Source: Paraburkholderia sp. ZP32-5 (GTDB taxonomy: Bacteria; Pseudomonadota; Gammaproteobacteria; Burkholderiales; Burkholderiaceae). From it: 64,000 bases of DNA. The notes beneath the pieces are model-generated. The model ran no database searches and had not been told where the DNA came from. It saw only the letters and a list, made by a program, of their open reading frames with translations. The stretch spans positions 1,426,001-1,490,000 of the forward strand of contig NZ_JAJEJP010000001.1 of assembly GCF_021390495.1 (NCBI RefSeq). Direction: 5' to 3'. The position numbers and the translations under genes are program-made. Below are positions 43,957 to 64,000 of this stretch, piece after piece (within the stretch, counting starts at the first letter, position 1; the number at the start of each line of letters is the position of its first letter).

Positions 43957-44218
43957 ACTCCGTTTGACACTATAGATACGCGAGGGAGTCGCATCGGCGT
44001 TCCACCAGACCCTATCTCGAGTTCGTCCAGCTCAGGGTCCAGATCGCCGTGTGCGCTCCTTCAGTGAAATCGCCAACATCGAGTTCGATGGAATCAAGCG
44101 TCCGTCAGTGCAATTGAATATCGACCAGGGTGCTTTCGGTCGGTGTTAAACGTACTCAAGACGTGCAGCGATCAAACAGCATAGTCAGGAACAGGTAGCG
44201 TCGCTGCCCCACATATCG
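43957..44218. other. Intergenic region between cargo and secretion genes
   Basis: This 262-bp region holds no supported gene or clear terminator. The ABC transporter start has no strong ribosome site. A promoter for the secretion genes could lie here. Confidence 0.4.
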
Positions 44219-46348: not shown

Positions 46349-46364
46349 CTAGAAATATTTAACA

Positions 46365-47786
46365 ATGAATTCCATCCGAGTTCTGGCAATCGGTGACCTG
46401 TTACGTCGTTACGGCGCGGTATGGCGCACGGCCTGGTCGATTCGTGACCAGCTCGACACGAAGCCGCGTCTGTCTCATGAGATAGCATTCCTGCCAGCCA
46501 ATCTGGAATTGGTCGAAACACCGGTTCATCCGGTTCCGCGATGGACGATGCGTATCATCGTCCTCCTGGCATTGGCCATTCTGCTAATCGCGATTTTTGG
46601 GCAACTCGACATCGTAGCGGCCGCGAAGGGCAAACTTCTCCCCGATGCCCGGATCAAGATCATACAGCCGGCAATCACAGGTGTGGTTCGCAGTATTCTG
46701 GTACAGGATGGTCAGCGTGTGGCAGCTGGCCAGGTCCTCATGGAACTTGATCCCACACAGGCGGCGGCGGATACAGACAAGGCACGCGCGTCAAAGATCG
46801 ATGCGGAGCTTGCTATTTCTCGAGCCCAGGGCTTGCTTGAAGCGCAAAGCAACGGGCTCGCGCCGGCTGTGCACGCTGTCGAGGGTGCGTCGCCAATCCA
46901 GCAGCGCGAAACGCAGCATTTCGCGGATGGTTTGTATCAGGAGTATCGAGACAAGCTACACAGCGCAGAGGCCGAACTGCTCAAACGCCAGGCTGAGCTT
47001 GAAACGACTCGTGAGGAAATAGCAAAGCTTGCTGACACTGCGCCGCTCGCCCGACAGCAGGCCAATGAATATCAGGCGCTTCTTGCTGAAAAATACGTGG
47101 CACGGACCGATTATCTGGACAAGGAACGTACGGCGTTAGAGCAGGAGCATGAACTCACTGCGCAGCAAAGTCACGCTCACGAGCTCGTGCAAGGGATCAG
47201 CGAACAGCGTGCTGATATCGACTCGATAACTTCGCAGTTTCGCAGCACACAGCTTGATAGTCTCGACAAGGCCACACAGCAATTGGAGCAGAGCCGCAAC
47301 GATCAGACGAAGGCAGACACTCGTCAAAAGCTGATGAGTCTGACGACACCTGTCTCCGGTACCATTCAGCAACTGCAAGTCCATACGCTTGGCGGCGTTG
47401 TGACAACTGCACAAACTTTGATGGAGGTTGTGCCAGACGATACCGTCGAGGTCGAAGCAAATATAGAGAACAAGGATATCGGCTTTGTAAAGGCAGGTCA
47501 GACCGCGATAGTCAAAATTGAAGCATTTCCTTATACCCGATTCGGGTATCTCACAGGCAAAGTCGTTTCCGTGTCGAACGATGCGATTCAGGACAAGAAG
47601 CTTGGACTAGCTTTTGTAGCTCATGTCCGCCTGCCAACAAACCGCATACTGGCGAACGGCCAGTGGATCCGCCTGACGCCTGGCATGGAGGCGACGGTCG
47701 AAATCAAGACGGGCAAGCGTAGCGTTGCACACTACTTCCTCGATCCGGTGATCCAGACGGCGCAGGAGAGTCTGCGTGAGCGCTAA
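46365..47786 (+). CDS. HlyD-family membrane fusion protein
   Basis: This 473-residue adaptor has one N-terminal membrane helix (IIVLLALAILLIAIFGQLDI), a lipoyl half (KIIQPAITGVVRSILVQDGQ), a long coiled-coil hairpin (about 150-330) and a C-terminal beta-barrel domain (VEVEANIENKDIGFVKAGQT). It links the ABC transporter to the outer-membrane channel. It starts 16 bp after the ABC gene and overlaps the TolC gene by 11 bp. Confidence 0.92.
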   Translation: MNSIRVLAIGDLLRRYGAVWRTAWSIRDQLDTKPRLSHEIAFLPANLELVETPVHPVPRWTMRIIVLLALAILLIAIFGQLDIVAAAKGKLLPDARIKIIQPAITGVVRSILVQDGQRVAAGQVLMELDPTQAAADTDKARASKIDAELAISRAQGLLEAQSNGLAPAVHAVEGASPIQQRETQHFADGLYQEYRDKLHSAEAELLKRQAELETTREEIAKLADTAPLARQQANEYQALLAEKYVARTDYLDKERTALEQEHELTAQQSHAHELVQGISEQRADIDSITSQFRSTQLDSLDKATQQLEQSRNDQTKADTRQKLMSLTTPVSGTIQQLQVHTLGGVVTTAQTLMEVVPDDTVEVEANIENKDIGFVKAGQTAIVKIEAFPYTRFGYLTGKVVSVSNDAIQDKKLGLAFVAHVRLPTNRILANGQWIRLTPGMEATVEIKTGKRSVAHYFLDPVIQTAQESLRER

Positions 47787-49257
47787 TGCTATCCGGATTT
47801 GGTGTGCGGCGATTTTTGCCACAGTGGGTTTGTCGGCGGTGAATCAATGTAACGCATGGGAATTCGATCCACTCTTCGCGCAGCGGTCGGTACTCCCCAC
47901 GCCGGCCGCAAGCATGCCAGGAGATGTCGCCCTGCGTATCTGCGTATTCGAGTCAATTCCGAATCCACTGCCTCTTCAGGAGGCGGTAGAGAGGGCTCTC
48001 TGCATAAATCCGAAGACTCGGGAAGCCTGGGCTAACGTAAAGATTGCCGCAGCAGATGTCGGGGTGGCCCGGGGCGCGTATTTGCCGACGATTTCGGCGG
48101 ACTGGCAAGGCGTACGCGACGATACGAATACCGACGTCATTGGACATCCGGAATTCAGTTCGAACTATCGCAACAGCGTGCTTCGAACCGAAAGTGTTTC
48201 TCTGAACTGGGTGCTCTACGACTTTGGCGGGCGTTCCGCGGCGCTGGCCAATGCGAACGCCTTGCTTGCGGCGGCAAAAGCGAATCAAGAGGCAGTACTG
48301 CAGACGGCATTTGCAGGCGTGGCGAAGGACTACTACGCCGCGCAAGCAGCCCAAGGCACCTATCTCGCGTCCCAGGAGATTGAGCAGACTGCTCTTACAA
48401 GCTTTAAAGCAGCGACTGCGCGCGCGAATCGTGGCATTGCTTCGATCAGCGATGAACTGCAGGCACAGACATCTTGGGCAGAGGCAGTGACAAGTCGGAC
48501 AAAGGCGTTGGGAGACTGGCAAAGTGCTGTAGGTAGCCTTGCATCGGATATGGGCCTTGATGCGAGTATGCCCCTTTCGTTACCTCCTGTCGGAGACGGC
48601 GTTAAGCCGGGGGCTGAGTTCACAGAGTCGGTCGACGAATTGATCCGGGAAGCAAAACGTACGCACCCCAGCGTACGTGCCGCGCAAGCCCAGCTTGAGG
48701 CCGCGTCGGAAAAGACGAAGCAAACGCGTGCTGCTGGGCTCCCGACGCTGAGTTTAGTTTCGAAATACAGCTGGAACAATCAACCGACGACGCTGGAAGT
48801 CGGAACGCCTCAATTTCCGGCAAGCGGCCGCGAATGGTATATCGGTTTTCAAATTGCAATACCAATCTTCGAAGGCTTTACGCGTACCTATCAAATTCAC
48901 GACACGGAGGCCAGAACCGAACTGCAGCGCTATACGCTCAACGAAGTGGAGCAGCAGGTAGGGCTTGACGTATGGACGAGCTACCAGACGCTAAAGACCG
49001 CGACCGACAATCTGGATAACACCGCAATGTTGCTGGATATCGCACAGCGATCCTATGACGCAGCGCAAGGTCGCTATCAGGTTGGTGTTGGCAGCATTGT
49101 CGAACTGCTTAATGCGCAATCGTCACTCGCGGCTGCAAAGCGCCAACGGATTCAGTCGCTGACGGATTGGCGCTCTGCGAGGCTTCAGCTTGCATCGAAA
49201 CTGGGAACACTTGGGATATCAGACATCGCTGAAGGCAATTCCGTGGCAGGCAAGTGA
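47776..49257 (+). CDS. TolC-family outer-membrane channel
   Basis: This 493-residue protein has a signal peptide (cleavage near QCNAWEF, about residue 26) and two TolC repeats. Landmarks include LQEAVERALCINPKTREAW, WVLYDFGGRSAALANANALL and the C-terminal RYQVGVGSIVELLNAQSSLA, all typical of type I secretion TolC proteins. It starts at a GTG inside the end of the HlyD gene, showing translational coupling. It completes the secretion machine. Confidence 0.92.
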   Translation: MSANAIRIWCAAIFATVGLSAVNQCNAWEFDPLFAQRSVLPTPAASMPGDVALRICVFESIPNPLPLQEAVERALCINPKTREAWANVKIAAADVGVARGAYLPTISADWQGVRDDTNTDVIGHPEFSSNYRNSVLRTESVSLNWVLYDFGGRSAALANANALLAAAKANQEAVLQTAFAGVAKDYYAAQAAQGTYLASQEIEQTALTSFKAATARANRGIASISDELQAQTSWAEAVTSRTKALGDWQSAVGSLASDMGLDASMPLSLPPVGDGVKPGAEFTESVDELIREAKRTHPSVRAAQAQLEAASEKTKQTRAAGLPTLSLVSKYSWNNQPTTLEVGTPQFPASGREWYIGFQIAIPIFEGFTRTYQIHDTEARTELQRYTLNEVEQQVGLDVWTSYQTLKTATDNLDNTAMLLDIAQRSYDAAQGRYQVGVGSIVELLNAQSSLAAAKRQRIQSLTDWRSARLQLASKLGTLGISDIAEGNSVAGK

Positions 49258-49845
49258 CTTCGCGGGACGGTACCGGTCTTGCAATCAAACTGTTCGCTAA
49301 CGCCGCCGGTGAATACATGCGCAACGCCACCGCCAGACTCAAACCCGGATTACGTTCCGGTTACGTGATCACCCGTTTCGGTCCCGTGATCGCTCATTCC
49401 GGCATCGTGATCACGCGTTTCGGAAACCTGTGATCGGCGATCACGATCAACCGAAACGACTGATCACGATCATTCGGAATCCGTGATCACGATCCGCCGA
49501 AATGCGTGATCACGTTCGCCGGAATACGCAACGTGATCCCATTCGTCACCCTTTGCCCCGTGAATGGTTGACGAACTGATGGCTGGTTGTAGCCTCGCCT
49601 CGTCGATGAAAGCGCGGAGCGGTTTCACTGTATCGAAACGGTCGGCGACCGCCTGCCATCGGTTCAGCTCACGCTGCGCGGTTTTTCCGGCCAGCAAGCT
49701 AGCGGATCTGAGCAGCGACAGATGGACGGCAGCCGCGGCCGAGTACCATCCTTGCGTGGCAGGCCCGTTGGGCTGCAAGTGCGATTTCTCAAGGCACCAC
49801 GTTTCAGCAAGGGTACGTAGCGTTGCATGGTTTAAACTTTAACTA
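49258..49845. other. Junction between secretion and replication modules
   Basis: No gene is supported. The first half has an array of GTGATCAC-type repeats (49365-49540). The second half has an open frame on the minus strand without convincing similarity. The region marks a sharp change of gene orientation and looks like the scar of a past insertion. Confidence 0.5.
49365..49540. repeat. Eight degenerate GTGATCAC repeats spaced 21-30 bp
   Basis: Copies begin near 49365, 49386, 49407, 49430, 49460, 49483, 49506 and 49533. Each has GTGATC or TGATCAC next to TTTCGG, CCGAAA or CCGGAAT. Arrays like this form the ends of some IS21-family elements, where they bind the transposase. No istA or istB gene is next to it, so it is likely a remnant end. 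A replication-origin or protein-binding array is the other option. Confidence 0.6.
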
Positions 49846-52161
49846 CTATGAATTCAGCGCTAGGCCCCTAAAAATCATTGACTGACTAATGCGCTTTTGT
49901 TGGTAATCAAGAGCGAGCATCCTGACTCTGAACTTCTTTTGAGTGAGCGCCGCGAGTCGCAGCCGTTCCACAAATGCCTGATAGGATTCGAACGCGTCGC
50001 TGGACCGTACGCTCAGGTCCTTGCCAGTTCTGCATTTCGCTTCTATCCATCGTTGCACCGTATCAGCCGATTCGTGAGCCATGTCGGTCGCCTCTTCAAC
50101 TTTGCGACACGTGCCGAGCCCATGCTTCAGATACCGTTTCGCCCCCTCTATCATCCAGTTCAAGATACCCGAAGACTCAGCGGCTAGCTCCGAATCCAGA
50201 TTGCTGTTGCGATCGCCTCCTTCGAACTGACGCGTGAATGGTAGGACGACCACGCGACGCCATAGAGCCTGGTCCTCATATTGCCAGTCCGGCATCGCGT
50301 TTGTGCTAATCAACAATTTGCACTGAGGCTTGAACATTTCCTGTCCTTCGTAGTTGTGCCGCCCCGTCAGTGCGTCATTGCCCGTCAACTGCTTGAAGAA
50401 TGGTTCGTCGATCCCGTTTTTCCGCTCCGTCTCAGTGCAGAACGCGGCTCTGACACCTCGCAAGGTCATGATGGCCGGCGTCGGTCCGTTGCCGTTTCCT
50501 TTGCTTGCCCCCTTCATTAACGCGGGAGAAAGCGTCGTGTAATACTTGTCACCCATCACAGTCTGAATTGCGCGGGTCAACGTACCCTTACCGTTACTAC
50601 CGCTCCCGAGCATGAAGAATGCCTTCTGCTCATTGCTGTGTCCGATGAAAAGGTAGCCAAGGACAGTCTGCAGATACCGGCGATAGTCGTCGGAGCCCGC
50701 GATATCCCTGATAAACTGGTGGAACGCCGGGCACTTCGCTGATTCGTCGAATCGAGCTGCGGTCGATCGCGATACCATGTCCTCTGGTCGCGCTTGCCGA
50801 AACTGACCGGTTCGCAAATTGACCACGCCGTCCGGAACGCCGAGCAACTCGGGTTTGAAGTCAAAATCTTCGCCTTTCGCATCGAGCTCCGGATAGGTGA
50901 GAAATTCCTCAAGCATCTTGTTCGCTTGCACGAAGCTCTTAAGGCCATTCAGCGCGCGGACGGCACCTTCAGCCTTCGATGTTCGCGCCGTTGCCAAGAG
51001 GTCTTTTATGATGCCCTGAAGTACCCGTGCTGTTTCCTTCCGGTCGTTACGCCAGACACCGTTGGTGAACACATAGAATGCCTTCTCATGGATTTTTAGC
51101 CGGCCAGATAGCATGTCCTTCGCGTATTCAACGATATCCGGCGACGACGTCGGAATCCATGTTTCGCCATTTTTTTGGGTGCCACTATCGAATTGCTTCG
51201 CATACCAGCGAAGGCTTTTTATCGTCCGTCCTTCGCCTCGACGAAAGCCGTCCCACGTGGGCTGCTGATCGGCTTCGTTGTACTTTTCGGATGCGGCGCG
51301 AGACCACGCGTCCCAGACCAAAAAGCCCGATTTGCTGGGATCCCAATCATGGATCGCCGCGCCGATGTCAAACCAGACTTTGCGTTCTGTAGCCGGTACG
51401 GTTCGCAGCAATTCCTCGACTTCTTGCCGCGTCATCTGATCGGGAGAGCGTTCCACCTCGGCTCGCGCGAGTCGCGCCGACGGATTGTTCAATCGCGGTG
51501 GTGTACTGCTTTTACTCATCGTCGATTTGATCGTACCACCGAGCGACTTCACTATACGACTGGCCGGCACAGCATCAGGACGCGCCTTTGCCTGAGACAG
51601 TCGGGCAACAAAGTGTTCCCGATCAGTCTTCCAATTAATTGTTCCAGCCAGCCGGAACGCACGACCTAAATCCGTCGCCTGCACATCGCCACCCAGAGCG
51701 TTAGCAAGGGAGAGGGCGAGATCCTGGTATTCCGACAGGCTGCATTTGACGCGGAAATAGATGTGGTACCTGCATTTGGAGCTTTGAACGATGAACGCTG
51801 GTTTGACCTTCGCTATGATGGTCTCAACCTCCGCCTTGGTCACCCGCCGATCTAGATCGACGACAAGAAACCGTATGCCTTTGATATTTTCCTTCTTGCG
51901 ACCCAGACCGTCTGTCCGTTGAGGGACGACCGAAACATTGTGGCCTGACTCGCAGAGCTTTGCGATTTTTGCAATCGCATCCGCGGTCGGCTTGATATAG
52001 TGAATTTCCCCAGCACTTTTATTGGTTGAGTGATAGGTCTGGACCGTGAGCATTGAGTTACCCGTGGCTTCGGAGATTAGCTCAAGGTGACGAAGCATAA
52101 ATTTCGCGTCGCACCGTGGGTTGTTACCTACTGACTTCGGGGGGGTATTTTTCGCTGCCAT
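49846..52161 (-). CDS. P4-type primase-helicase (RepB-like primase, SF3 helicase)
   Basis: This 771-residue replication protein has an N-terminal archaeo-eukaryotic-type primase domain (FLVVDLDRRVTKAEVE, SSKCRYHIYFRV), a PriCT-type segment (WFDIGAAIHDWDPSKSGFLV), a D5_N domain and a C-terminal superfamily 3 helicase with Walker A GSGSNGKGT near residue 520. It resembles phage P4 alpha-type proteins that initiate replication of satellite elements. It would let the island replicate after excision. It lies downstream of the AlpA gene, both on the minus strand. Confidence 0.92.
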   Translation of the reverse strand: MAAKNTPPKSVGNNPRCDAKFMLRHLELISEATGNSMLTVQTYHSTNKSAGEIHYIKPTADAIAKIAKLCESGHNVSVVPQRTDGLGRKKENIKGIRFLVVDLDRRVTKAEVETIIAKVKPAFIVQSSKCRYHIYFRVKCSLSEYQDLALSLANALGGDVQATDLGRAFRLAGTINWKTDREHFVARLSQAKARPDAVPASRIVKSLGGTIKSTMSKSSTPPRLNNPSARLARAEVERSPDQMTRQEVEELLRTVPATERKVWFDIGAAIHDWDPSKSGFLVWDAWSRAASEKYNEADQQPTWDGFRRGEGRTIKSLRWYAKQFDSGTQKNGETWIPTSSPDIVEYAKDMLSGRLKIHEKAFYVFTNGVWRNDRKETARVLQGIIKDLLATARTSKAEGAVRALNGLKSFVQANKMLEEFLTYPELDAKGEDFDFKPELLGVPDGVVNLRTGQFRQARPEDMVSRSTAARFDESAKCPAFHQFIRDIAGSDDYRRYLQTVLGYLFIGHSNEQKAFFMLGSGSNGKGTLTRAIQTVMGDKYYTTLSPALMKGASKGNGNGPTPAIMTLRGVRAAFCTETERKNGIDEPFFKQLTGNDALTGRHNYEGQEMFKPQCKLLISTNAMPDWQYEDQALWRRVVVLPFTRQFEGGDRNSNLDSELAAESSGILNWMIEGAKRYLKHGLGTCRKVEEATDMAHESADTVQRWIEAKCRTGKDLSVRSSDAFESYQAFVERLRLAALTQKKFRVRMLALDYQQKRISQSMIFRGLALNS

Positions 52162-52418
52162 GATTTTTATTTAAAAGTTGATGTCCCCCTTCCTCCGTGT
52201 AGGATGTGTAGGCAAATCGTCTGTTTCCTTCTCCTTTTTCTTCCTCGATCAGTTGAAGGAAAAAATAAGAGAGTTATAGACGTATCCCTACACGTCGCAC
52301 ACGGTTCTCTCCTTCCTCGTGAGAGGGGAGGGGGCAAGATGACGTGGTTAAATTGAAGGCGCGGTTGGCGAGGATGGAGCACGAAGAGGTGAGAACCCCG
52401 GGGGCGCACTTTCCCTCG
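52162..52418. other. Region between alpA and the primase gene, possible iterons
   Basis: This short AT-rich stretch has GTGTAGG at 52197-52203 and 52206-52212, and the inverse CCTACAC at 52287-52293. These could be binding sites for the primase or AlpA near an origin, but the repeats are short. No gene is seen. Confidence 0.35.
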
Positions 52419-52643
52419 CTATTTACGGCGATCGATCCGGGCCTGAACCCATGCCTCGATTTCCTGCGCAACCCAACCGACGGAGTTCGCAGTTAGCCGT
52501 ATTGGTGTAGGGAAGGTGCCGAGTTTGATTCCGGCATAGATGGAAGATCGCGAAAGGCCCGTGATCTGCTCCACGGCCTTGCGACGTAGGATCGTTGGAG
52601 CGTGCCAGTTTGGCAACTCCGTCGTAGTTTGTTTGATTGGCAT
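52419..52643 (-). CDS. AlpA-family DNA-binding protein
   Basis: This 74-residue MerR-like winged helix protein has the AlpA signature: ILRRKAVEQITGLSRSSIYA then FPTPIRLTANSVGWVAQEIE and WVQARI. AlpA proteins activate or act as excisionases for P4-type integrases. It belongs to the P4-like module with the primase gene and the integrase 10 kb away. Confidence 0.93.
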   Translation of the reverse strand: MPIKQTTTELPNWHAPTILRRKAVEQITGLSRSSIYAGIKLGTFPTPIRLTANSVGWVAQEIEAWVQARIDRRK

Positions 52644-52782
52644 GATGTCGTCCGGAATGTCAGCCGTGAGAACGGCATGGACAACATCATGCAGGCTTGG
52701 AAGGGGGGAAATTCGGAGCGAAATTTTTTATGTTTCGCTCCGCCCTGTGCCGGTGGCCGTATGCCATGCTGACGATTGATTG

Positions 52783-53556
52783 CTAGCGGCGAACGTTCTG
52801 TTCTGCCGCCGGCATCTTTTCGTGTCTTTTTGCCGCCGTAGCGATGGCAATGTAGCGAAATTCGGTGAAAGGTTTGGCGCTGTCATCGACCATCTTTCTG
52901 ATATTCTCGGCGATTTTGGCCCTTGGGCCACTCCAGCGTTTTTCTTTGATGATCCATGGGGCGTTGGCTAACCGCATCCATTTAAACTTGGCAACGTCGG
53001 TGTTATCGCCCTCGTTGTCACTTGTTGCGTCTAGCAACCGCAAATACCAAAGGAAATTTGGCCTATCGAGCTGTGGCTGCGAATCTAGATACTTGGTCTC
53101 TGGAGATTCAAGGCCCCGGATATGGTCAACTCTGGATTGCAAAATCGGTTCAGCACCGTTCAATAGTTCCTTGATGGCTGTTTTGGAGTGCAGTGCCGGG
53201 CGCAGATGGAAAATGAGCGCAATCTGGTCGTGCTGCAACGTGGCTTGCCATTCCATCGAGGCAATCGATGTCGGTTTGGGTGAGCTTGAAATGCCAGCAA
53301 AAGCAACGCGTGGTTTCTTGTCGTATGGCTGGTCGTAGCGACGGTAATAGCGCAGCATGAATGTCGACGCGATTTCTTTTTTCTTCGCTATGCGTTTTGA
53401 TTTTTTCTTGATTTTTAATACTGCGTCGCACTCATCTCGGAATTTACTGTTCCGGCGCAAAAATTCCCATGCCCATCGGCGGGGTTCCCAACATTCCCAG
53501 CCCTTGTAATCGGCCTCGCTACTCCCATCTGGTCGATCTTTTTGAATTTTAGTCAT
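52783..53556 (-). CDS. Protein with N-terminal DUF6499-like motif, unknown
   Basis: This 257-residue protein has WAWEFLRRNSKFRDE near residues 28-42, resembling the DUF6499 start found in many integrative-element proteins that are often followed by DUF2285. The middle is basic (KKKSKRIAKKKEIAS), suggesting nucleic-acid binding. The C-terminal half has no recognised domain. It lies upstream of alpA in the same direction and could be a regulator of the module. Confidence 0.7.
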   Translation of the reverse strand: MTKIQKDRPDGSSEADYKGWECWEPRRWAWEFLRRNSKFRDECDAVLKIKKKSKRIAKKKEIASTFMLRYYRRYDQPYDKKPRVAFAGISSSPKPTSIASMEWQATLQHDQIALIFHLRPALHSKTAIKELLNGAEPILQSRVDHIRGLESPETKYLDSQPQLDRPNFLWYLRLLDATSDNEGDNTDVAKFKWMRLANAPWIIKEKRWSGPRAKIAENIRKMVDDSAKPFTEFRYIAIATAAKRHEKMPAAEQNVRR

Positions 53557-54579
53557 TTGTCGTCTGATTATAGATAAATACGCTTGAAAAGACCCATCGT
53601 GCGTATACGGTTCGGTTGGCGTAGTTTTGATGTCGCCCTCGAAAACCCTCCTTACGGATAAAAATTTAAACGAGAGGGTATAACCTGCGAGTACATACGG
53701 CTCGGCTTGGTCTAGGACCAGGTAACGCCTAAAACTGCGGAGAAATCCAACTTGGTACCCGGACGTCGGTCATACTAAGTTACCCATTTTGCCGGAATGA
53801 TGTGGTATCTGCGCACAGTCTCGAGCAATTCGGTAGGAGGGTGGATATGACGGAGCAGACCGAGGTTTTATGATGACATGATCGGTGAGCGACCACTCGC
53901 GGGCCGATTTGTGCCGCTGGTATGAGTCACACGGTTATCATCCGAACGGCTACCTGACTTCCTGGTACTGCCCGATGCTCAACGCACGCTAGTCGGCCTT
54001 TGCGGGCGTTGGGACCGGACGACCGCGACGTCAGCATGCGGCCGGCGGTTTGGCTTTGCTGCCGAATGACAGCTTTCTCGATCAGCGAACTCATACCCGC
54101 AACCGTGAGTGGTCTTTCAACAATCGAGAGGACATTGCGCTTTTGTGCGTAATATCGGCTTTGTGCGAGCAATGCGTATCCCCATCGACCCGGTAGTACA
54201 GGAACGCAAATAGCTCCGCGGCGCGGAATTCACATCGAGATAGCGAATATATAATGCCAACCCGGCCATGCATTGAAGCGCTTGACGACTCGCATTCGGT
54301 CTACATCGAAAGGTGAGTTGATGCTGAAAGTACTTGACAAGCTCGTCGCCGAACGCGCCAACGTCGGTTGGGGACTATGCCCAAGATTCGGCGCGGAGCT
54401 GTGGTGGATATAGCCTGCGGTGTCGGCCAATGCCACCGGCCGAACGTGTGGGGTCATCGATCCTCTATCCTCGCACCGTACGATGACGAAGGGGTTCATG
54501 CTGAGGCCCTGTCCAAGATGCATACAGAGGACTTTGTAAGCTTTTCAAGCGGGTTACAAAAAGAAAATCGAGGGAATAA
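53557..54579. other. 1-kb non-coding region before the giant RT gene
   Basis: No gene here can be supported; short frames look like degraded fragments. The region is mixed in composition. It contains related motifs ATACGGTTCGGTTGG (53605-53619) and ATACGGCTCGGCTTGG (53695-53710). A short frame at 54322-54414 has a weak ribosome site and no known product. Because several defence reverse transcriptases use an adjacent non-coding RNA, this region is a natural place to look for one, but I cannot show a structure. Confidence 0.45.
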
Positions 54580-57500
54580 GTGGATCGATACGATATCAGT
54601 GAGGTACTGACCAAGGTTTCACTGGAAGACGTGGTTAGGCGACTTGGCATCGAAACCGAGCGGCACGGCTCACAGACGCGGGCGCTTTGTCCGTTTCACC
54701 AAGACACCCGGCCTTCACTGAATCTGTATCAGGCAGAAGGCGCTTCTCCTGCGCACTTTCACTGTTTTGCTTGCGGTGCCCACGGCAATGCCATTGACCT
54801 AGTCAAACAAGTCGAGGGGTTGGACTTCCTGCCAGCAGTGAAATGGCTGACTCAGCAATTTGGCCTCACTTCCACGCTTCGTCTGTCCCCGACGAAGAGC
54901 GAACGAAAAACTGTCAGTCAAGCCGCACTGGACTTTGCGCTAAGCACCTTTGACGTAAAGCACGACGCTGAACTGTTTAAGGCATGGTGCGCCGAACGTG
55001 CGTTCGAGGAGGGGTTTCTATACGATCAGGGGCTCCGTTGCATTTCGCACGGCGTCTTGGTGGAGGCCTTGCAGAGTAAAAAACTGGAGGAGCGCACCGA
55101 ACTGATCGATGGGCTGGAGAGCCTAGGACTGATCAAGCGTCTACGCTCCCCATCTTCGACCGAACAGTGGAAACTGGATTTGCGCGACCAGTTCCGCGAC
55201 TGCTTCCACGATGGCCGCGTCGTGATCCCGATTCGTAGCGCCGATGCCAAACAGCCCAAAGTGATCGGCTTTGTGGGCCGCGCGCTCCAGAGCCTCCCTC
55301 CGGAAGGAGTAGCGAAGTATCTGCTCACATCGGGCTTCGATAAAAGCAATCACCTGTTCAATGCGACCGATGCCTTCAAGGCTGTCGAACACGCATTGAA
55401 GCACGGCCAACCGGCTACGCTTTATCTGGTTGAAGGGTTTCTCGACGCGCTGCGGATGAAGTCCTTAGGGCAGCCAGCTGTAGCGCTGATGGGCGTCAGC
55501 CTGAGCAATGGCCAACTGGAATTGCTGAAGGTCCTGGCTGAGAACGCGACCGGGAAGGGAGAGCTAGCGTACAGCGTCTTCCTAGACAGTGACTCAGCCG
55601 GCTTTGGCGGCGCCAACCGATTGGTGCGCAGACTACTTGACCTACCAGGTGTGGACTTGCGGTGGGTCGGCCTGCCTTGGCGAATCGAACCAGCACTGGG
55701 CAAAGACCCAGACGCCTGCCTGCTCGACGTTGCGTCCGCCGAGCAAGCAGCGGGCTGGTTACAGCGCTTCGAATTGCCAGCCGAAGGGGTACTCCTTGCG
55801 GGAGAGTTGGGAAGCCAAGACGCATCCGAGCTTGCGGCACTTCGCTGGCATCACCTAGCTGTGACGGTCCGCGAACGTGCACTGTTCAGAACGGCCATGA
55901 CGGTCAAGCGCCTTTACGGTCACCGGTTGGCTGAAGCGCCGGCGATGCGGCTGAAAGACAGCCCATGGCCATGGGCCCAGCAATTGCAAGCGGTCTTGCT
56001 GGGATCCGTCGGTGGAACGCGGCCCAGTGAGCGCAGCCTCTACCTGGAGGAAGAGCGTCCGCGAGCGGCCTTGGCCCGAAGGCTTGCATACCATGGTGCG
56101 CGCCGCGGCGAACTTCCTTGCGATGAAAGTGCTTGGCAAATTTTGAATGGCAATGAGTATCTGTTTGACGAGACGGTTCTGGATCGTCTCAGAGCCGCTG
56201 TTCAGGGAAAGTTGTGGCATCAAGCTGCGCCTTTTGATGCCGTGCATCTACCGCGCAAGCTTACGGCCAACAAGGATGTACTTGACGATCCTCGCCGCAA
56301 GGTAATGCCCCACCCGGCTGACCTGCATGCTCAGCAGTTATTCCTTAATGAACTGCTCACCCATCGGCATGATCGCCTGAGCGCAAGTGGTCTCGCGTTC
56401 TCGGCGTACATCCCAGCAGTGCGTTGGTATTCCTCCCGACAGGAGGTCTTGGTTACCGGCATGTACGAGGCCCTCAACGAGCCCGATCTCGAATGGGGTG
56501 AGCCTAAGACCTTGAGCTTTGGCTATCAGATCGACATGGATGTTTTGGAGGGTGACAAGACTCCCTCGGACCAAGGCATGTTTCGGCCTTTCGGCCAATG
56601 CTGGCGTGATTTCATGGCGAGTTTGATGCGCCAGTGCCATTCCATTGGGCCACGGGTACATGTGCTGCGTCTGGACGCCAAGCGCTATTACGACTCGATC
56701 CAGCGTTACGTGGTACGAGAAGAGCTTCTGAAGCCTCTGTCTACGGCGCTTCGCGACCACAATCCAGAAGGTTTTTCCAGCATGTTCGGGCTGACCATCG
56801 ACTCGTCAGAACGGGATGGTGCGCTGGAGCGACTATTAACTGACCTGATCTTCGGTCACGAGTATCACGACCCCGAGGTTGCAGGCAAAACCCGGCGCAG
56901 CGAAGAAGTGACCGGTATACCTCAGGGGCCGGTCTTTTCAGCCTACATCGGCACCATTGCCCTGTTTCCGGTGGACGATGCAGCACGAAGGTTCATCCGC
57001 CGTACCCGTACCGAAGAGTCCGGCCCCGATGGCAAGCCCCACCCCCGCGCTGGTTACGCGCGCTATGTGGATGACATCGTGCTGTTCGCAGACAACGAAG
57101 CACTATTGACGGAACTGCGCGAAGTACTGCAGGCCAAGGCCGCCGAGCATTCGATTTCCTTGATTCACAAGGGTGAACGTGTGCGCTCCGGCACGCCGTC
57201 CCAAGTAATGCGCCAGCTTAACGACGGGCGGGGACTGGCAGCGTCCGTGCCCGCCTGGGAACCCCCAATCGTCGGTGACGGCGAGTCTGATTGGAGCCTA
57301 GGTGACGACCTGCCCAAAGTGGATCGCCAGTGCGCCCTACAGATGCTTCGGCATCCAGCGCTGATGGATCGGCCCGAGGACATCATTGATCAGGTGAAGG
57401 CTGCGATGAGCGCGCCTGATCTGCGGGTTAGTGACTTGGGGCTATGTGCTCGCTGGCTGTGGTGGCATATTGCCATCGTGGACCGGCCCGTCGATTCTGA

Positions 57501-60500
57501 GCCTGCGTGGACCTACTTTTGGAGCCACTGGAATGAGGTTTGCGACGGCCACGACTGGGCTTCGGCCTTCAAAGAGCGCGGCTACGACACGCTCTTTGCG
57601 GTTGAAGGGCTGGACAAACTGCTTGATCCTAATCCTTGGCAATTGAACGGCCAGTTACTGACTGAGCGCGACAAGAGGCGGATCGATCGCATTGCTCTGG
57701 CCCGCTTGGTCTACAAGCCCGACTTCTTTGAGAGCGTGAGACCTGCCACGAACAGCGACCATGTGAAGCGCCGGACACGGCTGGTGGCGCGTAAAGCTTG
57801 GCGATTGGTTGGCGAGGAGCCGGCGCCACCGGTGGTCGCGCCACAAGGCAACCGTGAGTTGACAGCCGTTGAATGGTTGTGTCTGGCGGGTACGTTACTG
57901 TTCAACGCATCGGGTAATGAGGATCCGTTGGCTGCGCTCAGGAACCGCTTACCCGTCCAACATAATGAATTGGCCCTCGCGCAAACTGTCGTTTGCCAAT
58001 TGATCGGCCAAGGCGTTGCGATCAGTGCCAACGCAGAGGTAGGACTTGCCATCGACTTTGTGGTCAGAAGTGCGCGGCGTGATGTGCGACTGACTGTGCT
58101 GTCTAGATTTCCAAAACTGCTTTCAGGCATCGGGGGCAATCAGAATCTCCGGCTGATTCCGCACTTGCCTGTTCTGAATCACGAAGCCGAATCGATTTAC
58201 GAGATCGATACAGAACCCGGAATTGATGGCAGATCTCTGTACCGTTGCTTTCTCCGCGGTGAGACTCCCAATGGACCTGAAGTGGTGTCTCACTTCGTGC
58301 AAGCGGCTCTGCATTCGGGGTCGTCAAATGCAGCCGAGACAAGACCGATCTACTTTAAATTGATCGAACTCAGTGCCTCCACAATTCGTCATGGCAGGAG
58401 TGTGGTGCCACAGCCGTGGAGCGAATTAAATGCCTCCGAAGTAACACTCTCGGCACCCAAGACTCATTTAGCTGCGTGTCTATTTCTAGCTTTTCTGGCG
58501 ATGCATCGATGGAAAGGGGACAACGAGGATCGAATTGCGTATGTTCCGTTCCGGCCTCAGTTGTTTCAGGATGGAGAGGGAGGGAGGGTGACGCTTCATC
58601 TTCTCGCCGATCCGGTTCCGCGCAATCTGCTGGGCGTCAGCGCGTGGTACCACGACCGTGACGAACGAGTGCAGTCGGAAAATGTGCCGCTGGAGGGCGC
58701 AGAAATGTGGCGCGTGGGTTGGGCCGTCGCCGACGTGCTGGGCGTGGCTGTAGACATGGCAGGCGAGACTGGCGAGCGCGACGAGCTACTTGACGATATC
58801 GAGGAATCAGACAACGAGGCGCATGCCAAGCAGGTACTGGAAAACTATGTGCTGCGCCAGCAGTTACGCAAGTTGCAGGGAAGCTATCTGTCGTCCGCAA
58901 ATATTGATGCTGCACTAGACACGGTCTCTTCGTTGCCCGGCACGGTGAATCGAGCACTGAAATTATTGCAAGACTTTCCTGCGGACCTGGACCTGGACGC
59001 ACAGGTGCGGCATGTAATTCTGATGGAAGCCGAAAGCCGAGCCATGGCCATGCGAATGAACATGCGCAGTGGTGATGACTTGCGGCACACACTGCATCGA
59101 GCGTTCCCAGACGCGTTGGCTCGATTGCCATTGTGGGTCGTGGCAGGACTTAAATTGCTGCGGCCAACCGGCCAAACGACCTCATTACGCCCTGAACCGG
59201 CGCTGATGTTGGGCCTGTACCGCGCGCTGTATCCAGTTCCGAGCAAGCACGAGGCCGAAGCACCGGCAACGTCGCTGCGTATGGCGCTGGTGCTAGCTAC
59301 CGTGGGCATTGGCCTGCGTGGTAGCGTAGCGGCGCTTTGGGGCTACGCCGCAGACTTGGGTTCGCGCCGTATGAGCGAAAGCTTGAACTTGCCGGCTGAT
59401 TGGGAGATGCCGGACATGGCTCGCCTGGATCCGCAGGGTGATTACCGGGCGATACGCAAGACGCTGTTCGACGGCGATTGGCCTGCACTGTGCAAGGCGA
59501 GCCCATGGCAATGGATGCTTGCCATGATCGGCTTGCTCGATGCCAGCTTTGCGCAGGCCTTCAAACTGCATTCGTTGAAAGAGTTATTTGCGGTGCTCAG
59601 CGTTTGGCAGACCAAGCCTGCTCGCGCCGATGATGCAGACGTGGCGGAAGAGCCTTGGCCCTTCGACGCGTTGCCGAGATTCACGCTGCAACAATGCGAG
59701 AGTTTGATACAGGCGTTGCCCAAAGCGCTGTGCGAGCTCGATCGCGAGCGAGGTATGCGCGTTGTATGTGTTCATGGCAGGACGTTTGGTCGTAGCCGCG
59801 ACACCGACGAATTCATAGATGCCACGGGGGCCGGTTGGCAAATGAGCAGGCCGCAGTACACCAGCCTGTATGCCAACTCGGTCGAAGAATACCGCCCCCT
59901 GATGGGCAGCCGGGTGCTTAAGGTCTGGACGGAAACACGCCGTATCACGGACGATGATCTGCTGGCCCTACACTCGCTTGATACCAAGCTGGGAAAGTGG
60001 CTGCCATCTCAAGCGGATGTGATCGACACGGTTAAAACAGGCGTGGCAGTTCGGTATCACCCCGCGGCGACCGATTACGTTAAAGCCGGCACTGCAACTC
60101 CGCTAACAAATGATGTGACGAACGACTCGCTAGCGTATCCAGATGAAGCCGACGGCCACACTACAGAGCCGCTGAATTCACAGTCTGAGGTAGTTGATGA
60201 CCAGCCCATAGTGCCGCCGCAACCAGAGACGTCGGCCGAAAGGCACTCAGGCTCGCTCTATTTCGAACGGTTGCCTGAATGGCAAGGTGAGTCGTGGAAA
60301 AATCGCCTCGGAGGCGAGACAAATCATGACCGGGGAGCACGAATCAGCTCGCACTTCCGCGTCGCGCTGTTTCAGTCCCGAGTGGATGAAAGCTACGCTC
60401 ACCCGATAGTCGAAGTCGGTCTGGGCGGCTTGCCTTTAGCCAATTCATCGCGAGATGCACTCCGATCCGAATTGGAGAATCGCGACCTTAAGACAGTAAG

Positions 60501-62085
60501 CAAATCCGCTCAGCGACATTCTGAGTTTCTTTGGCGCCACGACAAGAAAGTCATTTCTTGGCCAGAGCATCGGCGTCGGGTGCTACTGAGCCAAGCCCTG
60601 AAGGCTTGCAGAGACCTGAAGGTGGAATTATTGGTTTTGCCCGAAGTGTCCGTTCGACCGGACACAGTGGCATGGTTGAAGACGCAGCTTCCGAATTTCC
60701 CTGGGTTGGCCGTGCTTGCGGGTACCTATCGGCATTTCGAGGCAACTGACGGTGGCGATCACTTGAAGGAAAGGTTGACCCTGTTGTGGGCACCGGACAA
60801 AGCGCTTGAAGTGCCGCTCGGGTTGGAGGGGGACAAAGGGGTTATCGAGTTGCAGCGTGATAAGAAGTACCGCGCCGTGGCAGCCCATGAACTGTTCCGG
60901 CCGAGTACCGATAAGTTACAGCCGCTATACACCGAAGAGAAAGTGGTGGGGGAATTGCGCCGCATCCGAGATCGCGCGAAGAAGGGTGAATGGTCAGCTG
61001 ACCAACTGATTCCGCTGTTCCAAGCTTTGCTCCATGGTCCTCAGAAGCTGCGTTACTGCATGGAGCTAATTTGCTCTGAGTTGTTCGTGCTTACAAGCCC
61101 CGCCAACCGGTCGCCGCTGCAACAAGAGTTGGCCAAGATTTTGCAACTGTTTGGCGGAAATCCCTCCGAAGCCAAAACGATTGTCAACGATGACGTCATC
61201 GCACTTGGCGAACTACTGACGTTCGCGCAATTGCAGCGTGAGCGACGGTCCGTGTTGCTGGTCCCCGCTTTCACAAGCCGGAGCAACGACTATTGGCATG
61301 CTGGTCAGGCCAGCGTTTTGGCGTCTGGCACGGCTACCGTGTTCTGTAATGCGGCTAACAAGAAGATCAGCATTGGCGGTAGCTGTTTCATCGGCATTGA
61401 CTCCGTTAACGGCGTGAAACCTGAACACGCCGGTATCGTACGTCTGTTGACTCCGTATCACGGTTGGAGCAAGGGCATTCTGCAGGCTGACTGCAAGGGG
61501 GCGCTGTCGCCGACCGATCAAGCCTTGGTGGTCGTGGATCTCGATCCGGTGCATGTGGTAAGTGGCAAGCCACGTCCCCAATTGCTGCCCGAACCCATGT
61601 CTTTGGTGGCGTATTTGCCCGTTGTGGAGGTGATAGACAAGGTGAAAAACGCCGAAGGACTAGCAAATGCGTTGAACAAAGAACTGACTCTGGAAGGATG
61701 TAGAAAGTTGCGCGAAATGTTGACGAATGAGGCCTTTCCGGAAGCATGTGGGCAATTGCACGTCCGTGATGATTTCGCCAAAGCGTTCACGGAACTGCTT
61801 GAAGCAAAACAAAACGGGCAGCTGAATCCAGAGACAGGTGGAGCGAAATTGGAAAAATTCAAAGACTTCTTCGGTGATTCACGCGCTATCCGCGAGCGCA
61901 TCTTGGCTTGGCTCCGGGATCGTCATCAGCAACCCGCCTCAAAGGCTGGCGAGCTGCGTCTGGAACCAGTTTGGCTGGACTTTCTGGTCGCGGATCTGAC
62001 TTGGCGACATAGCGACGACAAGTGTCCTGAAGTCCGTGTCCCGCCATTGCTGGACGAGTCGGCGATTGATTTCAGCAAGAGCTGA
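54580..62085 (+). CDS. Giant primase (CHC2-Toprim)-reverse transcriptase-nitrilase fusion
   Basis: This 2501-residue protein starts at a GTG after GAGGGA. Domains: a CHC2 zinc finger (Cys37, His40, Cys62, Cys65); a Toprim fold with VEGFLD (Glu285, Asp289) and DSD (Asp336, Asp338), together DnaG-like; a reverse transcriptase at about 600-850 with motif A LDAKRYYDSI (Asp699, Asp705), IPQGP (780-784) and YVDD (829-832); a region of about 1000 residues with no recognised domain; a charged linker (about 1830-1910); and a C-terminal nitrilase fold with LLVLPEVSV (Glu2022), Lys2095/2096 and LICSELF (Cys2165). RT-nitrilase fusions are known defence proteins (DRT/UG class). It neighbours the integrase, a usual cargo position. 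Confidence 0.92.
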   Translation: MDRYDISEVLTKVSLEDVVRRLGIETERHGSQTRALCPFHQDTRPSLNLYQAEGASPAHFHCFACGAHGNAIDLVKQVEGLDFLPAVKWLTQQFGLTSTLRLSPTKSERKTVSQAALDFALSTFDVKHDAELFKAWCAERAFEEGFLYDQGLRCISHGVLVEALQSKKLEERTELIDGLESLGLIKRLRSPSSTEQWKLDLRDQFRDCFHDGRVVIPIRSADAKQPKVIGFVGRALQSLPPEGVAKYLLTSGFDKSNHLFNATDAFKAVEHALKHGQPATLYLVEGFLDALRMKSLGQPAVALMGVSLSNGQLELLKVLAENATGKGELAYSVFLDSDSAGFGGANRLVRRLLDLPGVDLRWVGLPWRIEPALGKDPDACLLDVASAEQAAGWLQRFELPAEGVLLAGELGSQDASELAALRWHHLAVTVRERALFRTAMTVKRLYGHRLAEAPAMRLKDSPWPWAQQLQAVLLGSVGGTRPSERSLYLEEERPRAALARRLAYHGARRGELPCDESAWQILNGNEYLFDETVLDRLRAAVQGKLWHQAAPFDAVHLPRKLTANKDVLDDPRRKVMPHPADLHAQQLFLNELLTHRHDRLSASGLAFSAYIPAVRWYSSRQEVLVTGMYEALNEPDLEWGEPKTLSFGYQIDMDVLEGDKTPSDQGMFRPFGQCWRDFMASLMRQCHSIGPRVHVLRLDAKRYYDSIQRYVVREELLKPLSTALRDHNPEGFSSMFGLTIDSSERDGALERLLTDLIFGHEYHDPEVAGKTRRSEEVTGIPQGPVFSAYIGTIALFPVDDAARRFIRRTRTEESGPDGKPHPRAGYARYVDDIVLFADNEALLTELREVLQAKAAEHSISLIHKGERVRSGTPSQVMRQLNDGRGLAASVPAWEPPIVGDGESDWSLGDDLPKVDRQCALQMLRHPALMDRPEDIIDQVKAAMSAPDLRVSDLGLCARWLWWHIAIVDRPVDSEPAWTYFWSHWNEVCDGHDWASAFKERGYDTLFAVEGLDKLLDPNPWQLNGQLLTERDKRRIDRIALARLVYKPDFFESVRPATNSDHVKRRTRLVARKAWRLVGEEPAPPVVAPQGNRELTAVEWLCLAGTLLFNASGNEDPLAALRNRLPVQHNELALAQTVVCQLIGQGVAISANAEVGLAIDFVVRSARRDVRLTVLSRFPKLLSGIGGNQNLRLIPHLPVLNHEAESIYEIDTEPGIDGRSLYRCFLRGETPNGPEVVSHFVQAALHSGSSNAAETRPIYFKLIELSASTIRHGRSVVPQPWSELNASEVTLSAPKTHLAACLFLAFLAMHRWKGDNEDRIAYVPFRPQLFQDGEGGRVTLHLLADPVPRNLLGVSAWYHDRDERVQSENVPLEGAEMWRVGWAVADVLGVAVDMAGETGERDELLDDIEESDNEAHAKQVLENYVLRQQLRKLQGSYLSSANIDAALDTVSSLPGTVNRALKLLQDFPADLDLDAQVRHVILMEAESRAMAMRMNMRSGDDLRHTLHRAFPDALARLPLWVVAGLKLLRPTGQTTSLRPEPALMLGLYRALYPVPSKHEAEAPATSLRMALVLATVGIGLRGSVAALWGYAADLGSRRMSESLNLPADWEMPDMARLDPQGDYRAIRKTLFDGDWPALCKASPWQWMLAMIGLLDASFAQAFKLHSLKELFAVLSVWQTKPARADDADVAEEPWPFDALPRFTLQQCESLIQALPKALCELDRERGMRVVCVHGRTFGRSRDTDEFIDATGAGWQMSRPQYTSLYANSVEEYRPLMGSRVLKVWTETRRITDDDLLALHSLDTKLGKWLPSQADVIDTVKTGVAVRYHPAATDYVKAGTATPLTNDVTNDSLAYPDEADGHTTEPLNSQSEVVDDQPIVPPQPETSAERHSGSLYFERLPEWQGESWKNRLGGETNHDRGARISSHFRVALFQSRVDESYAHPIVEVGLGGLPLANSSRDALRSELENRDLKTVSKSAQRHSEFLWRHDKKVISWPEHRRRVLLSQALKACRDLKVELLVLPEVSVRPDTVAWLKTQLPNFPGLAVLAGTYRHFEATDGGDHLKERLTLLWAPDKALEVPLGLEGDKGVIELQRDKKYRAVAAHELFRPSTDKLQPLYTEEKVVGELRRIRDRAKKGEWSADQLIPLFQALLHGPQKLRYCMELICSELFVLTSPANRSPLQQELAKILQLFGGNPSEAKTIVNDDVIALGELLTFAQLQRERRSVLLVPAFTSRSNDYWHAGQASVLASGTATVFCNAANKKISIGGSCFIGIDSVNGVKPEHAGIVRLLTPYHGWSKGILQADCKGALSPTDQALVVVDLDPVHVVSGKPRPQLLPEPMSLVAYLPVVEVIDKVKNAEGLANALNKELTLEGCRKLREMLTNEAFPEACGQLHVRDDFAKAFTELLEAKQNGQLNPETGGAKLEKFKDFFGDSRAIRERILAWLRDRHQQPASKAGELRLEPVWLDFLVADLTWRHSDDKCPEVRVPPLLDESAIDFSKS

Positions 62086-62519
62086 GCCAAAGCAATCAGT
62101 TCCCACCTCTCTGGCGGAAGCGTCAGCGACCGCTTTCAATTTTCCGGGTGGCTTCGGCCTGTCGCGGAGGCAGATCCCAGCCTCTGAAAAGCGGTCGTTG
62201 CTCAACGAAAACGGAATGGCTTCTACGGATCGAGAGTGTGAGTTCACTGATGGGGAAAGCTGTCGCGCCTCCTTCTAGTCGCCAACGTTGGCCGTCGGCC
62301 GCATTGCTGACATAGAACCCAGTCCGCTTCGACGTCAGCTTTGGCCGACGACTCGCCGACCGATACACTGCACGAATAGCCGTTCCAGTTTGCAACCGGC
62401 CATAGCCATAGCCCACGGGTCGGGTCGAAAGGTGGTTGTGGATCGACTGCAGTCCTCGCCGCTCTCGGATCGTTAGAAGGATGAAATTCGATAGTCGCAG
62501 TAGCAAGGCAACGACTGGC
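62086..62519. other. Region between the giant gene and the integrase gene
   Basis: This 434-bp stretch has no supported gene; an open minus-strand frame at 62123-62533 has no recognised product and overlaps the integrase end. No clear terminator is found after the giant gene. Confidence 0.4.
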
Positions 62520-63713
62520 TTAACGACCAGCAAGATAGTTAGCCCAATCAGCCATCATCGCCGCGCGTTTCGTAAACAGGTCACCGCGCGCGTAGGCGGC
62601 CTCTGCTTTATCCTTGAGCAGGTGTGCCAGCGCGGCTTCGGCAACTTCACGCGGATAGTGCGTCGTCTCGCCAACCCAATCGCGGAAGGTTGAGCGGAAA
62701 CCATGAGCCGTCAGATCACTACGTTCCATGCGTTTCAACAACTGCAAAAGGGCCATATTTGATAGCGGGCTTTGTTCACGCTGCCCCGGGAACACGTACT
62801 CGTTCTGCCGGACTGACTTCATCGCCTTGACAATGCGAATCGCAGCCTTGGACAAAGGTACGCGATGCTCCTTTCCAGCTTTCATCCGCTCGGCCGGAAT
62901 GGTCCAGATTGCCGCGCTTAGGTCAAACTCATCCCACCTTGCACCGATTATTTCGTTGGTACGAGTTGCAGTCAGAATCAGGAGTTCGAGCGCTTTGGCT
63001 CCCGTGTTGTCCAGTTTGCGAAGCTCAACCATGAACGCAGGTGCGTCGGAGTAGGGCAGGGCGGCATGATGCTCGACCTTCTGCACCTTCGACCGCTTCG
63101 GAAGCAGATGATCGAGGTGGCCTTTCCAGCGCGCCGGGTTTTCTCCGGAGCGGTAGCCGCGCACGGTTGCCCAATCGAGTACGGACTCGATCCGTCCACG
63201 AACGCGCGAGGCAGTCTCGGTCTTTTCCGTCCAGATCGGCTCCAGCGCCTTCATGACGAGCGCAGTATCGATCGCCGACACCACAAGCGACCCGAAGTGC
63301 GGTGACGCATAGGTATCAAGCGTATTCGTCCACTGATCCGCGTGTTTGGCATTCTTCCAACCACTGCGATGAGCTTCGATATATGCCTCCGCGCACTCGT
63401 CGAACGTTTTGCTTTTCGCCGCTGTGGCCTTGGATGACGCACGCTGCTGTTCCTTGGCGTCGAGCGGATCAACGCCTTCTAGCAACTGTTTGCGCGCCGC
63501 GAGGGCAAGCACGCGCGCGTCGGCAAGACTTACAGTGTGTAAGGGGCCTAGGCCCATACCCCGGGCCTTGCCATTTTTCATATAACGAAAAAGCCACGAT
63601 TTGACACCGCCTTGGGTGATTTGCAGGTAGAGGCCGCCCCCATCACCGTGAAAGCCGGGCTTCGTGAGCTTGCCGATTTTCGTTGCGCTGAGTTTGTTAA
63701 TTGCGTGTGCCAT
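62520..63713 (-). CDS. P4-type tyrosine integrase
   Basis: This 397-residue recombinase has the N-terminal arm-binding DUF4102 domain (HGDGGGLYLQITQGGVKSWL), a core-binding domain and the catalytic domain with Arg251 (TATRTNEI), His337-x2-Arg340 (AHGFR), His364 (ALAHLL) and the nucleophile Tyr374 (AAYARGD). It integrates into tRNA genes. It lies just inside the right attachment site and reads into the island. Arm-like motifs flank its promoter side. Confidence 0.95.
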   Translation of the reverse strand: MAHAINKLSATKIGKLTKPGFHGDGGGLYLQITQGGVKSWLFRYMKNGKARGMGLGPLHTVSLADARVLALAARKQLLEGVDPLDAKEQQRASSKATAAKSKTFDECAEAYIEAHRSGWKNAKHADQWTNTLDTYASPHFGSLVVSAIDTALVMKALEPIWTEKTETASRVRGRIESVLDWATVRGYRSGENPARWKGHLDHLLPKRSKVQKVEHHAALPYSDAPAFMVELRKLDNTGAKALELLILTATRTNEIIGARWDEFDLSAAIWTIPAERMKAGKEHRVPLSKAAIRIVKAMKSVRQNEYVFPGQREQSPLSNMALLQLLKRMERSDLTAHGFRSTFRDWVGETTHYPREVAEAALAHLLKDKAEAAYARGDLFTKRAAMMADWANYLAGR

Positions 63714-63732
63714 AGCGTCATTCTAACGATTT

Positions 63733-63753
63733 GACTTACAAATTGACTATCAA
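63733..63753 (+). promoter_or_regulatory. Putative integrase arm sites at the right end
   Basis: GACTTACAA (63733-63741) and TTGACTATCAA (63743-63753) are exact copies of motifs at 36336-36344 and 36322-36332, on the same strand but in the opposite order. They lie 20-40 bp upstream of the integrase start, so the integrase may also regulate itself there. Confidence 0.65.
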
Positions 63754-63873
63754 AATATCTCTGGATTCAGGCGATCCGGGGAGGACTGCTGTGGAATCGA
63801 GATTCTGTGAAACCCTTGCTGGGCAAGGGATTGATGGAATTGCGTGGAATCGTGCGGAACCGGGTTGGTATGA

Positions 63874-63887
63874 CCGTCTCTCCGCCA
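63874..63887 (+). repeat. attR core: 14-bp copy of the tRNA-Ser 3' end
   Basis: CCGTCTCTCCGCCA repeats the tRNA end at 36257-36270. The preceding 13 bp match the T arm imperfectly. It marks the right boundary of the island. Confidence 0.92.
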
Positions 63888-63897
63888 CCCAACAGAT

Positions 63898-63924
63898 AAG
63901 GCTCCCAGATGTGGAGCCTTTTTG
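63898..63924 (+). terminator. Probable original tRNA-Ser terminator, displaced by the island
   Basis: AAGGCTCC pairs with GGAGCCTT around CAGATGT and is followed by TTTTG. It lies 10 bp past the right attachment repeat, exactly where a terminator for the tRNA would have been before insertion. Confidence 0.8.
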
Positions 63925-64000
63925 TTTTGGGTTATTAAAGTGGGGTTGGGTGATTGGCGGGAAGTGAATTCCGCTCGTTGGCGGCGCCTTCGCCGGGCGT

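Follow-up and report, generated by a model that had tools for sequence, protein, structure and literature searches.

The 64,000-nucleotide stretch of the Paraburkholderia sp. ZP32-5 genome analysed here (hereafter the window) carries one gene for a 2501-amino-acid (aa) protein, in which a DnaG primase core, a UG/Abi-like reverse transcriptase (RT) with its helical domain, and a nitrilase whose catalytic tetrad is intact are joined on one chain and have been conserved and selected together. The protein belongs to UG29, a family already catalogued by PADLOC as a candidate defence RT, and its architecture is not new. We regard a role in defence as probable. There is about an even chance, in our judgment, that UG29 is a DRT1-like abortive-infection enzyme, in which the RT product would control a nitrilase effector and the primase would act as a primer maker or as a sensor of single-stranded DNA (ssDNA).

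The UG29 gene and its domain layout

A preliminary description, made from the sequence alone, had proposed a single frame of 2501 residues, and the frame is indeed open from a GTG start. Its four-module architecture is firm. The features of the gene are the following; numbers beginning with L denote loci of relatives described below.

54580..62085, + strand: UG29 protein gene, single open frame, 2501 aa, GTG start
54422..54579, + strand: upstream stretch, probable promoter or leader (blastn similarity to L043 and L026; L034 less clear, by alignment only)
54580..54873, + strand: DnaG-type zinc-binding domain, residues 1-98, with C37, H40, C62 and C65 (Pfam PF01807, 3.9e-18)
54898..56019, + strand: DnaG RNA-polymerase (Toprim) domain, residues ~107-480, with R140, R234, K246, Y247, E285, D289, D336, D338 and D376
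56047..57234, + strand: reverse transcriptase, residues ~490-885, with D699 and YVDD at 829-832
57232..57315, + strand: loop following the palm, modelled with low confidence, residues 885-912, contains S889 (predicted model)
57325..59739, + strand: helical region, residues ~916-1720, fast-evolving (fold match only to ~1142)
59755..59997, + strand: small beta-rich subdomain, residues ~1726-1806 (secondary structure of predicted model)
60013..60252, + strand: disordered linker, residues ~1812-1891, near-neutral (predicted model, substitution rates)
60262..61599, + strand: nitrilase domain, residues ~1895-2340, with E2022, K2095, E2104 and C2165 (alignment, predicted fold)
61600..62082, + strand: C-terminal helical tail, residues 2341-2501 (predicted model)

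The PADLOC model RT_UG29 (PDLC03767) aligns end to end with the protein (residues 1-2491 to model positions 1-2278 of 2280, 2744 bits), and we found no difference from this family, whose name reportedly comes from the Mestre 2022 survey of UG/Abi RTs. The next model in the PADLOC scan was RTasDnaG-like (245 bits), and the remaining models shown scored at most 33.5 bits. The RTasDnaG-like model matches UG29 at its primase end and again over a short part of its nitrilase end (window 61528-61680), and it may have been built from broken UG29 genes. Pfam domains in the protein are the CHC2 finger, DNAG_N, Toprim_2 and RVT_1. The motifs CPFH (37), CFACG (62), LVEG (283), LDSDSAG (335), YVDD (829-832), LPEVS (2020), KKYR (2095) and ELICSEL (2162) were all located, and zinc ligands, Toprim acids, RT aspartates and nitrilase residues are in place, in agreement with the preliminary description. 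Elsewhere in the same genome there is one partial UG29 match (a 666-aa frame, residues 7-352, 54 bits), which we read as the host DnaG.

Against each of two relatives, L043 and L026, the ratio of nonsynonymous to synonymous rates (dN/dS) is 0.18 for the whole gene; by module it is 0.16-0.18 for the primase, 0.14-0.15 for the RT, 0.17-0.18 for the helical part, 0.14-0.15 for the nitrilase and 0.22-0.25 for the C-terminal tail, and the linker (1805-1890) reaches 0.98 and 0.69. All modules are thus under purifying selection and in use, and the linker is free of constraint.

A family-wide upstream non-coding RNA was considered and rejected, because a four-sequence nhmmer seed brought back its four members but no further sequence with an E better than 0.04, and Rfam gave no match at 49000-64000 with E up to 1.

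Relatives and their spread

Two plasmid-borne relatives came up in a tblastn search: a full-length one from Polaromonas naphthalenivorans (WP_011798575.1, 58.8% identical) and a distant one from Sphingomonas aerolata (28.9%). With a profile of residues 611-2501 built from these two and the window protein, we obtained 83 pattern matches in genome contigs and confirmed 50 loci, 41 of which carry one full-length frame, ruling out a chimera or assembly error as the origin of the long protein. Among the other nine, four are cut by contig ends (L034, L046, L058, L067), two have short frames (L056, L073), two are broken (L040, L069) and L053 is split in two. The split at L053 (8096-15561) leaves a primase-RT frame and a helical-nitrilase frame with a four-base overlap, a natural point at which the modules could be taken apart. 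The S. aerolata plasmid gene (L004:11971-19344) is cut by the record end, and no annotated feature shown covers it.

The 57 rows of the family alignment comprise 13 pieces and 44 proteins that are full-length or nearly so (41 loci, two plasmids and the window; 2388-2636 aa, median 2523). All 44 proteins keep the catalytic residues of every module checked. Record titles of the relatives point to Beta-, Gamma-, Alpha- and 'Delta'-proteobacteria, Lachnospiraceae, Oscillospiraceae, Planctomycetaceae, Pedosphaera and Acidobacteriota.

The family looks rare. The RT_UG29 model matches 387 of 398 sampled genomes of the same phylum; outside the window's genome its best score is 207 bits, and the matches listed lie in the first 473 model positions, those of DnaG. 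The model is therefore unusable for counting carriers, because its primase part responds to DnaG. A search of complete E. coli genomes, limited to near-identical DNA, found no such UG29 DNA, and two scans of viral contigs gave no confirmed match. In a phage collection 36 records match; among the ten listed, nine are confined to the primase range (residues 1-467) and the tenth is a 2.4-kb record. This record, DQ115810.1 (2438 bases, labelled Cyanobacteria phage AS-1), encodes a fragment that shares 57.7% identity with residues 764-1200 of UG29 and is possibly host or contaminant DNA.

The primase core

Pfam places a CHC2 zinc finger at residues 5-98 (3.9e-18) and Toprim_2 at residues 282-378 (1.5e-5), the two domains first described, and we can now sharpen this to a full DnaG catalytic core, comprising the zinc-binding domain and the RNA-polymerase domain; the presence of both led us to reject a lone Toprim domain. 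In the family alignment, C37, H40, C62 and C65 together with E285, D336 and D338 are identical in all 51 rows covering them. We also compared the 44 UG29 proteins with six DnaG-like proteins found with the model. R140, R234, Y247, E285, D289, D336, D338 and D376 are identical in 44/44 and K246 is kept in 41, and other DnaG positions vary, namely K255 (34 K, 9 R), D378 (38 D, 6 N), D207 (D in 34), R347 (R in 17) and R210, at which most members have another residue. The front end thus resembles DnaG in its two domains, with their zinc ligands and Toprim acids, and differs from it in these varying charged positions, in having no Pfam match to the helicase-binding domain, and in an NCBIfam DnaG score (141.3 bits) below the curated cut-off of 283.6.

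The reverse transcriptase and helical region

RVT_1 is matched at residues 664-861 (1.4e-6), with 28.6 bits, just below the Pfam cut-off of 29.6. Both the YxDD and the motif A aspartate of UG/Abi RTs are present: D699, D831 and D832 are kept in 52/52 rows and Y829 in 51, the exception being an H in a fragment from a copy with a broken frame, and the YVDD noted earlier is intact. The RT itself was correctly recognised in the preliminary description, and its fold starts near residue 490 rather than 600.

The best solved relatives of the RT profile are DRT2, DRT1, DRT9 and Drt3a, and the predicted RT and helical part align with DRT4, Abi-P2, AbiA and AbiK over 350-437 residues; in the predicted model, the helical domain after the RT resembles that of Abi/DRT enzymes. 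The small beta-rich subdomain (59755-59997) sits between the helical region and the linker, outside the fold matches listed. An RT tree of 37 sequences and 196 columns (18 UG29, five Drt1a, two UG5, one UG17, four group II and seven unlabelled) separates UG29 from the rest (split 96) with UG5 as the nearest group, and places Drt1a and UG17 with group II and unlabelled RTs (split 86). The UG/Abi clade was not recovered in this small tree of few groups and long branches, so the tree cannot prove the placement of UG29 in UG/Abi. The PADLOC family and the DRT/Abi fold and profile relatives speak for the UG/Abi placement expected in the preliminary description, and the RT was not shown to fall outside that clade, yet the tree does not cleanly confirm it. 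Family searches for Drt2 and UG10 returned mostly other RTs.

In the loop after the palm, S889 lies 57 residues after D832 and is S in 44 of 49 sequences, with Y, G or E in the other five; no Ser, Thr or Tyr of residues 885-912 reaches at least 90% conservation. We tentatively regard S889 as the counterpart of the priming serine S402 of DRT1, which has no clear match in UG29, and as a weak candidate for protein priming.

The nitrilase end

The preliminary description had named E2022, K2095/2096 and C2165 as nitrilase residues. E2022, K2095 and C2165 are kept in 47/47 rows; K2095 is the likely catalytic lysine, since its neighbour at 2096 varies (38 K, 9 R), and E2104 can be added as a second invariant acid (44/44 sequences, position 803 of that alignment). 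Nitrilases have the residue set E-K-E-C, and E2022-K2095-E2104-C2165 makes up the complete tetrad.

Pfam gave no nitrilase match in the window protein or in 34 members, and a nitrilase profile against PDB sequences gave chance matches only. Foldseek with a 1200-residue model gave a best nitrilase match with E 1.0e-3 and probability 1.00, and the first 40 rows were all of the nitrilase superfamily. Because this E is only 1.0e-3, the fold call leans on VIA-align. BFVD gave no match with E up to 1e-3. The solved DRT1 chain is absent among the fold matches listed, which excludes nothing. The C-terminal part is thus predicted to have a nitrilase fold, as first proposed, though Pfam is blank.

Genes beside UG29 in other genomes

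Clustering 637 frames around UG29 loci, we found a DEDDh exonuclease gene that adjoins eight alphaproteobacterial loci, downstream in L059, L060, L062, L064, L065, L066 and L072 and upstream in L061, with Pfam RNase_T matches of 4.5e-15 and 2.9e-18 in the two tested; on the S. aerolata plasmid, an annotated 3'-5' exonuclease (L121:208-1098, just past the record start) directly follows the UG29 gene. The gene is thus beside UG29 in 9/11 alphaproteobacterial members, among which L062 and L065 seem to be copies of the same element. It was not found at L063, L069, 40 other genome loci or the Polaromonas plasmid, around which the flanks vary and some are short.

Another neighbour is a Drt1b/RTasTM homologue, which follows UG29 in two gammaproteobacteria, Psychromonas (L049, 15981-16877; 1.1e-40) and Pseudoalteromonas (L053, 15548-16462; 7.8e-49). 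When called from its first start codon, this gene overlaps the UG29 end in both. L053 has a second Drt1b-related frame at 16449-16922. Neither DEDDh nor Drt1b was matched with E up to 1 among 702 frames of the window and the next 15 kb. Where such neighbours occur, UG29 stands next to an exonuclease or to a relative of the partner that DRT1 itself has. Both associations may already stand in the published UG/Abi survey, and we claim no priority.

A PADLOC scan of neighbours covered 108 proteins of the 170 nearest frames, omitting mostly small ones and not including L069-L074, at a threshold of 1e-15. The counts, taken without a control set, are for the 25 of 93 families listed: DEDDh 7, Drt1b 3, HerA 2 and mad8 2, and one each of type I restriction, type IV restriction, Jet, SoFic, MzaE and Orf5/HEC-06 (GmrSD).

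Comparison with known systems

A close parallel is DRT1 (PMC13275509). Like UG29, DRT1 has an RT, a helical repeat domain and a C-terminal nitrilase with a catalytic tetrad, and a Drt1b-type gene stands beside two UG29 members (none at the window), as drt1b adjoins ~18% of drt1 genes (PMC13275509). DRT1 differs in its 1229 aa, half the length of UG29, which agrees with the early remark that the protein is about twice as long as RT-nitrilase proteins; no primase is mentioned for it, and the Drt1a model gives only 33 bits on UG29 (residues 683-844). DRT1 is described there as performing template-free, protein-primed DNA synthesis, with its nitrilase kept in a filament by DNA adducts; both the RT and nitrilase sites are needed, and activity depends on a T4 helicase (PMC13275509).

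UG5-nitrilase RTs share with UG29 the RT and a nitrilase model match, and differ in length (1017 and 1073 aa at the two full-length loci found); our guess is that they are perhaps the DRT5 of PMC13275509. According to the myRT paper, nitrilase fusions occur in RT classes 1 and 5, and a primase is fused to the class 10 RT (PMC8934634). The same paper ties UG10 to AE_Prim_S_like/COG4951 and not to DnaG (PMC8934634); the primase of UG29 is DnaG-type, and UG10 RT-primase models reach at most 21 bits on UG29 (UG10_large, 21 bits). Our literature search returned no experimental paper on UG29, no RT paper using that name among the matches listed, and no paper combining RT, DnaG, nitrilase and antiphage.

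Proposed function

We infer a mechanism along the following lines. The zinc-binding and primase domains would bind ssDNA that arises when a phage replicates, and would synthesise or retain a primer there. From this primer, or from a protein-linked start, the RT would produce non-genomic DNA. The oligomeric state of the nitrilase would be set by this product, and upon infection the nitrilase would attack an amide or nitrile metabolite and bring the cell to a stop. Where present, the DEDDh exonuclease may trim the DNA or reset it, whereas a Drt1b-type protein may be a partner or second effector. For the primase part, strict conservation of the metal-binding acids favours catalysis over ssDNA sensing. 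With primase, RT and nitrilase kept on one chain across phyla, and an exonuclease or a Drt1b-type gene alongside in some members, the family lends itself to mutants that probe priming, the turnover of the product and the effector.

How synthesis starts can be read in two ways. It is possible, if on the whole unlikely, that the RT extends a short RNA primer which the DnaG core has laid down on phage ssDNA. Protein priming would then be unnecessary, and the product would report phage replication and switch the nitrilase on. The invariant zinc ligands and E285, D289, D336, D338 and D376 (44/44), the low dN/dS of the primase, the joining of primase and RT on one chain and the lack of a well-conserved hydroxyl residue in the loop 885-912 are consistent with this reading. 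Against it, R210, R347, D207 and D378 vary, and two class 3 systems, DRT1 and DRT5S/L, synthesised DNA when no template was added, in a manner that indicates protein priming (PMC13275509). In a fuller and rather speculative version, which we also consider unlikely, a true DnaG primase coupled to the RT would lay RNA primers on phage strands, an RNA-DNA or DNA product would gate the nitrilase killer, and DEDDh would reset the system in alphaproteobacteria. If true, UG29 would be a primase-started defence RT, unlike RNA-templated, protein-primed and retron types.

The other way, which seems doubtful to us, is protein-primed, template-free synthesis as in DRT1, with the DnaG part serving as an ssDNA sensor or grip and its polymerase activity unused. 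The DRT1 precedent (PMC13275509) and S889 in the low-confidence loop speak for it; the replacement of S889 in 5/49 sequences and the strictly conserved metal-binding acids, which argue for catalysis, speak against it.

The island around the gene

The gene lies in a small island of satellite-like or integrative kind that spans roughly 49.8-63.7 kb and has the following other features; the integrase is the neighbour pointed out in the preliminary description.

62520..63713, - strand: tyrosine integrase of the island, 434 bases past the UG29 gene end
52783..53556, - strand: PF20109 regulator-like protein (Pfam)
52419..52643, - strand: AlpA-type regulator (Pfam PF05930, 1.4e-18)
49846..52161, - strand: P4-family primase/D5-type protein (profile matches)

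For the island ends, we found no tRNA within the next 15 kb and no convincing direct repeat, and the matches listed for the two flanks never lie close together across 58 same-genus genomes. Around 52 other UG29 loci, blastp (1e-6) detected relatives of the integrase at 5 and of AlpA at 1, and none of the P4-type primase or PF20109 protein in the DNA around the loci. DNA similarity to L043 and L026 spans from ~150-160 bases before the start codon to ~80 past the stop, and this confinement to the gene and short flanks indicates that it moves as a one-gene unit.

That UG29 instead serves the mobile island in replication or repair, as its primase and RT domains and the company of an integrase and a P4-type primase might suggest, is very unlikely, because the island has a P4-type primase of its own, island genes seldom or never accompany other UG29 loci, and DNA similarity ends close to the gene. 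We know of no replication role for any nitrilase.

Outside the island, window 40414-49257 holds a type I secretion-like cluster (C39 ABC transporter, HlyD and outer-membrane channel) with a 1180-aa peptidase M10 protein, and 710 bases of its HlyD gene are repeated elsewhere in the genome with 99% identity.
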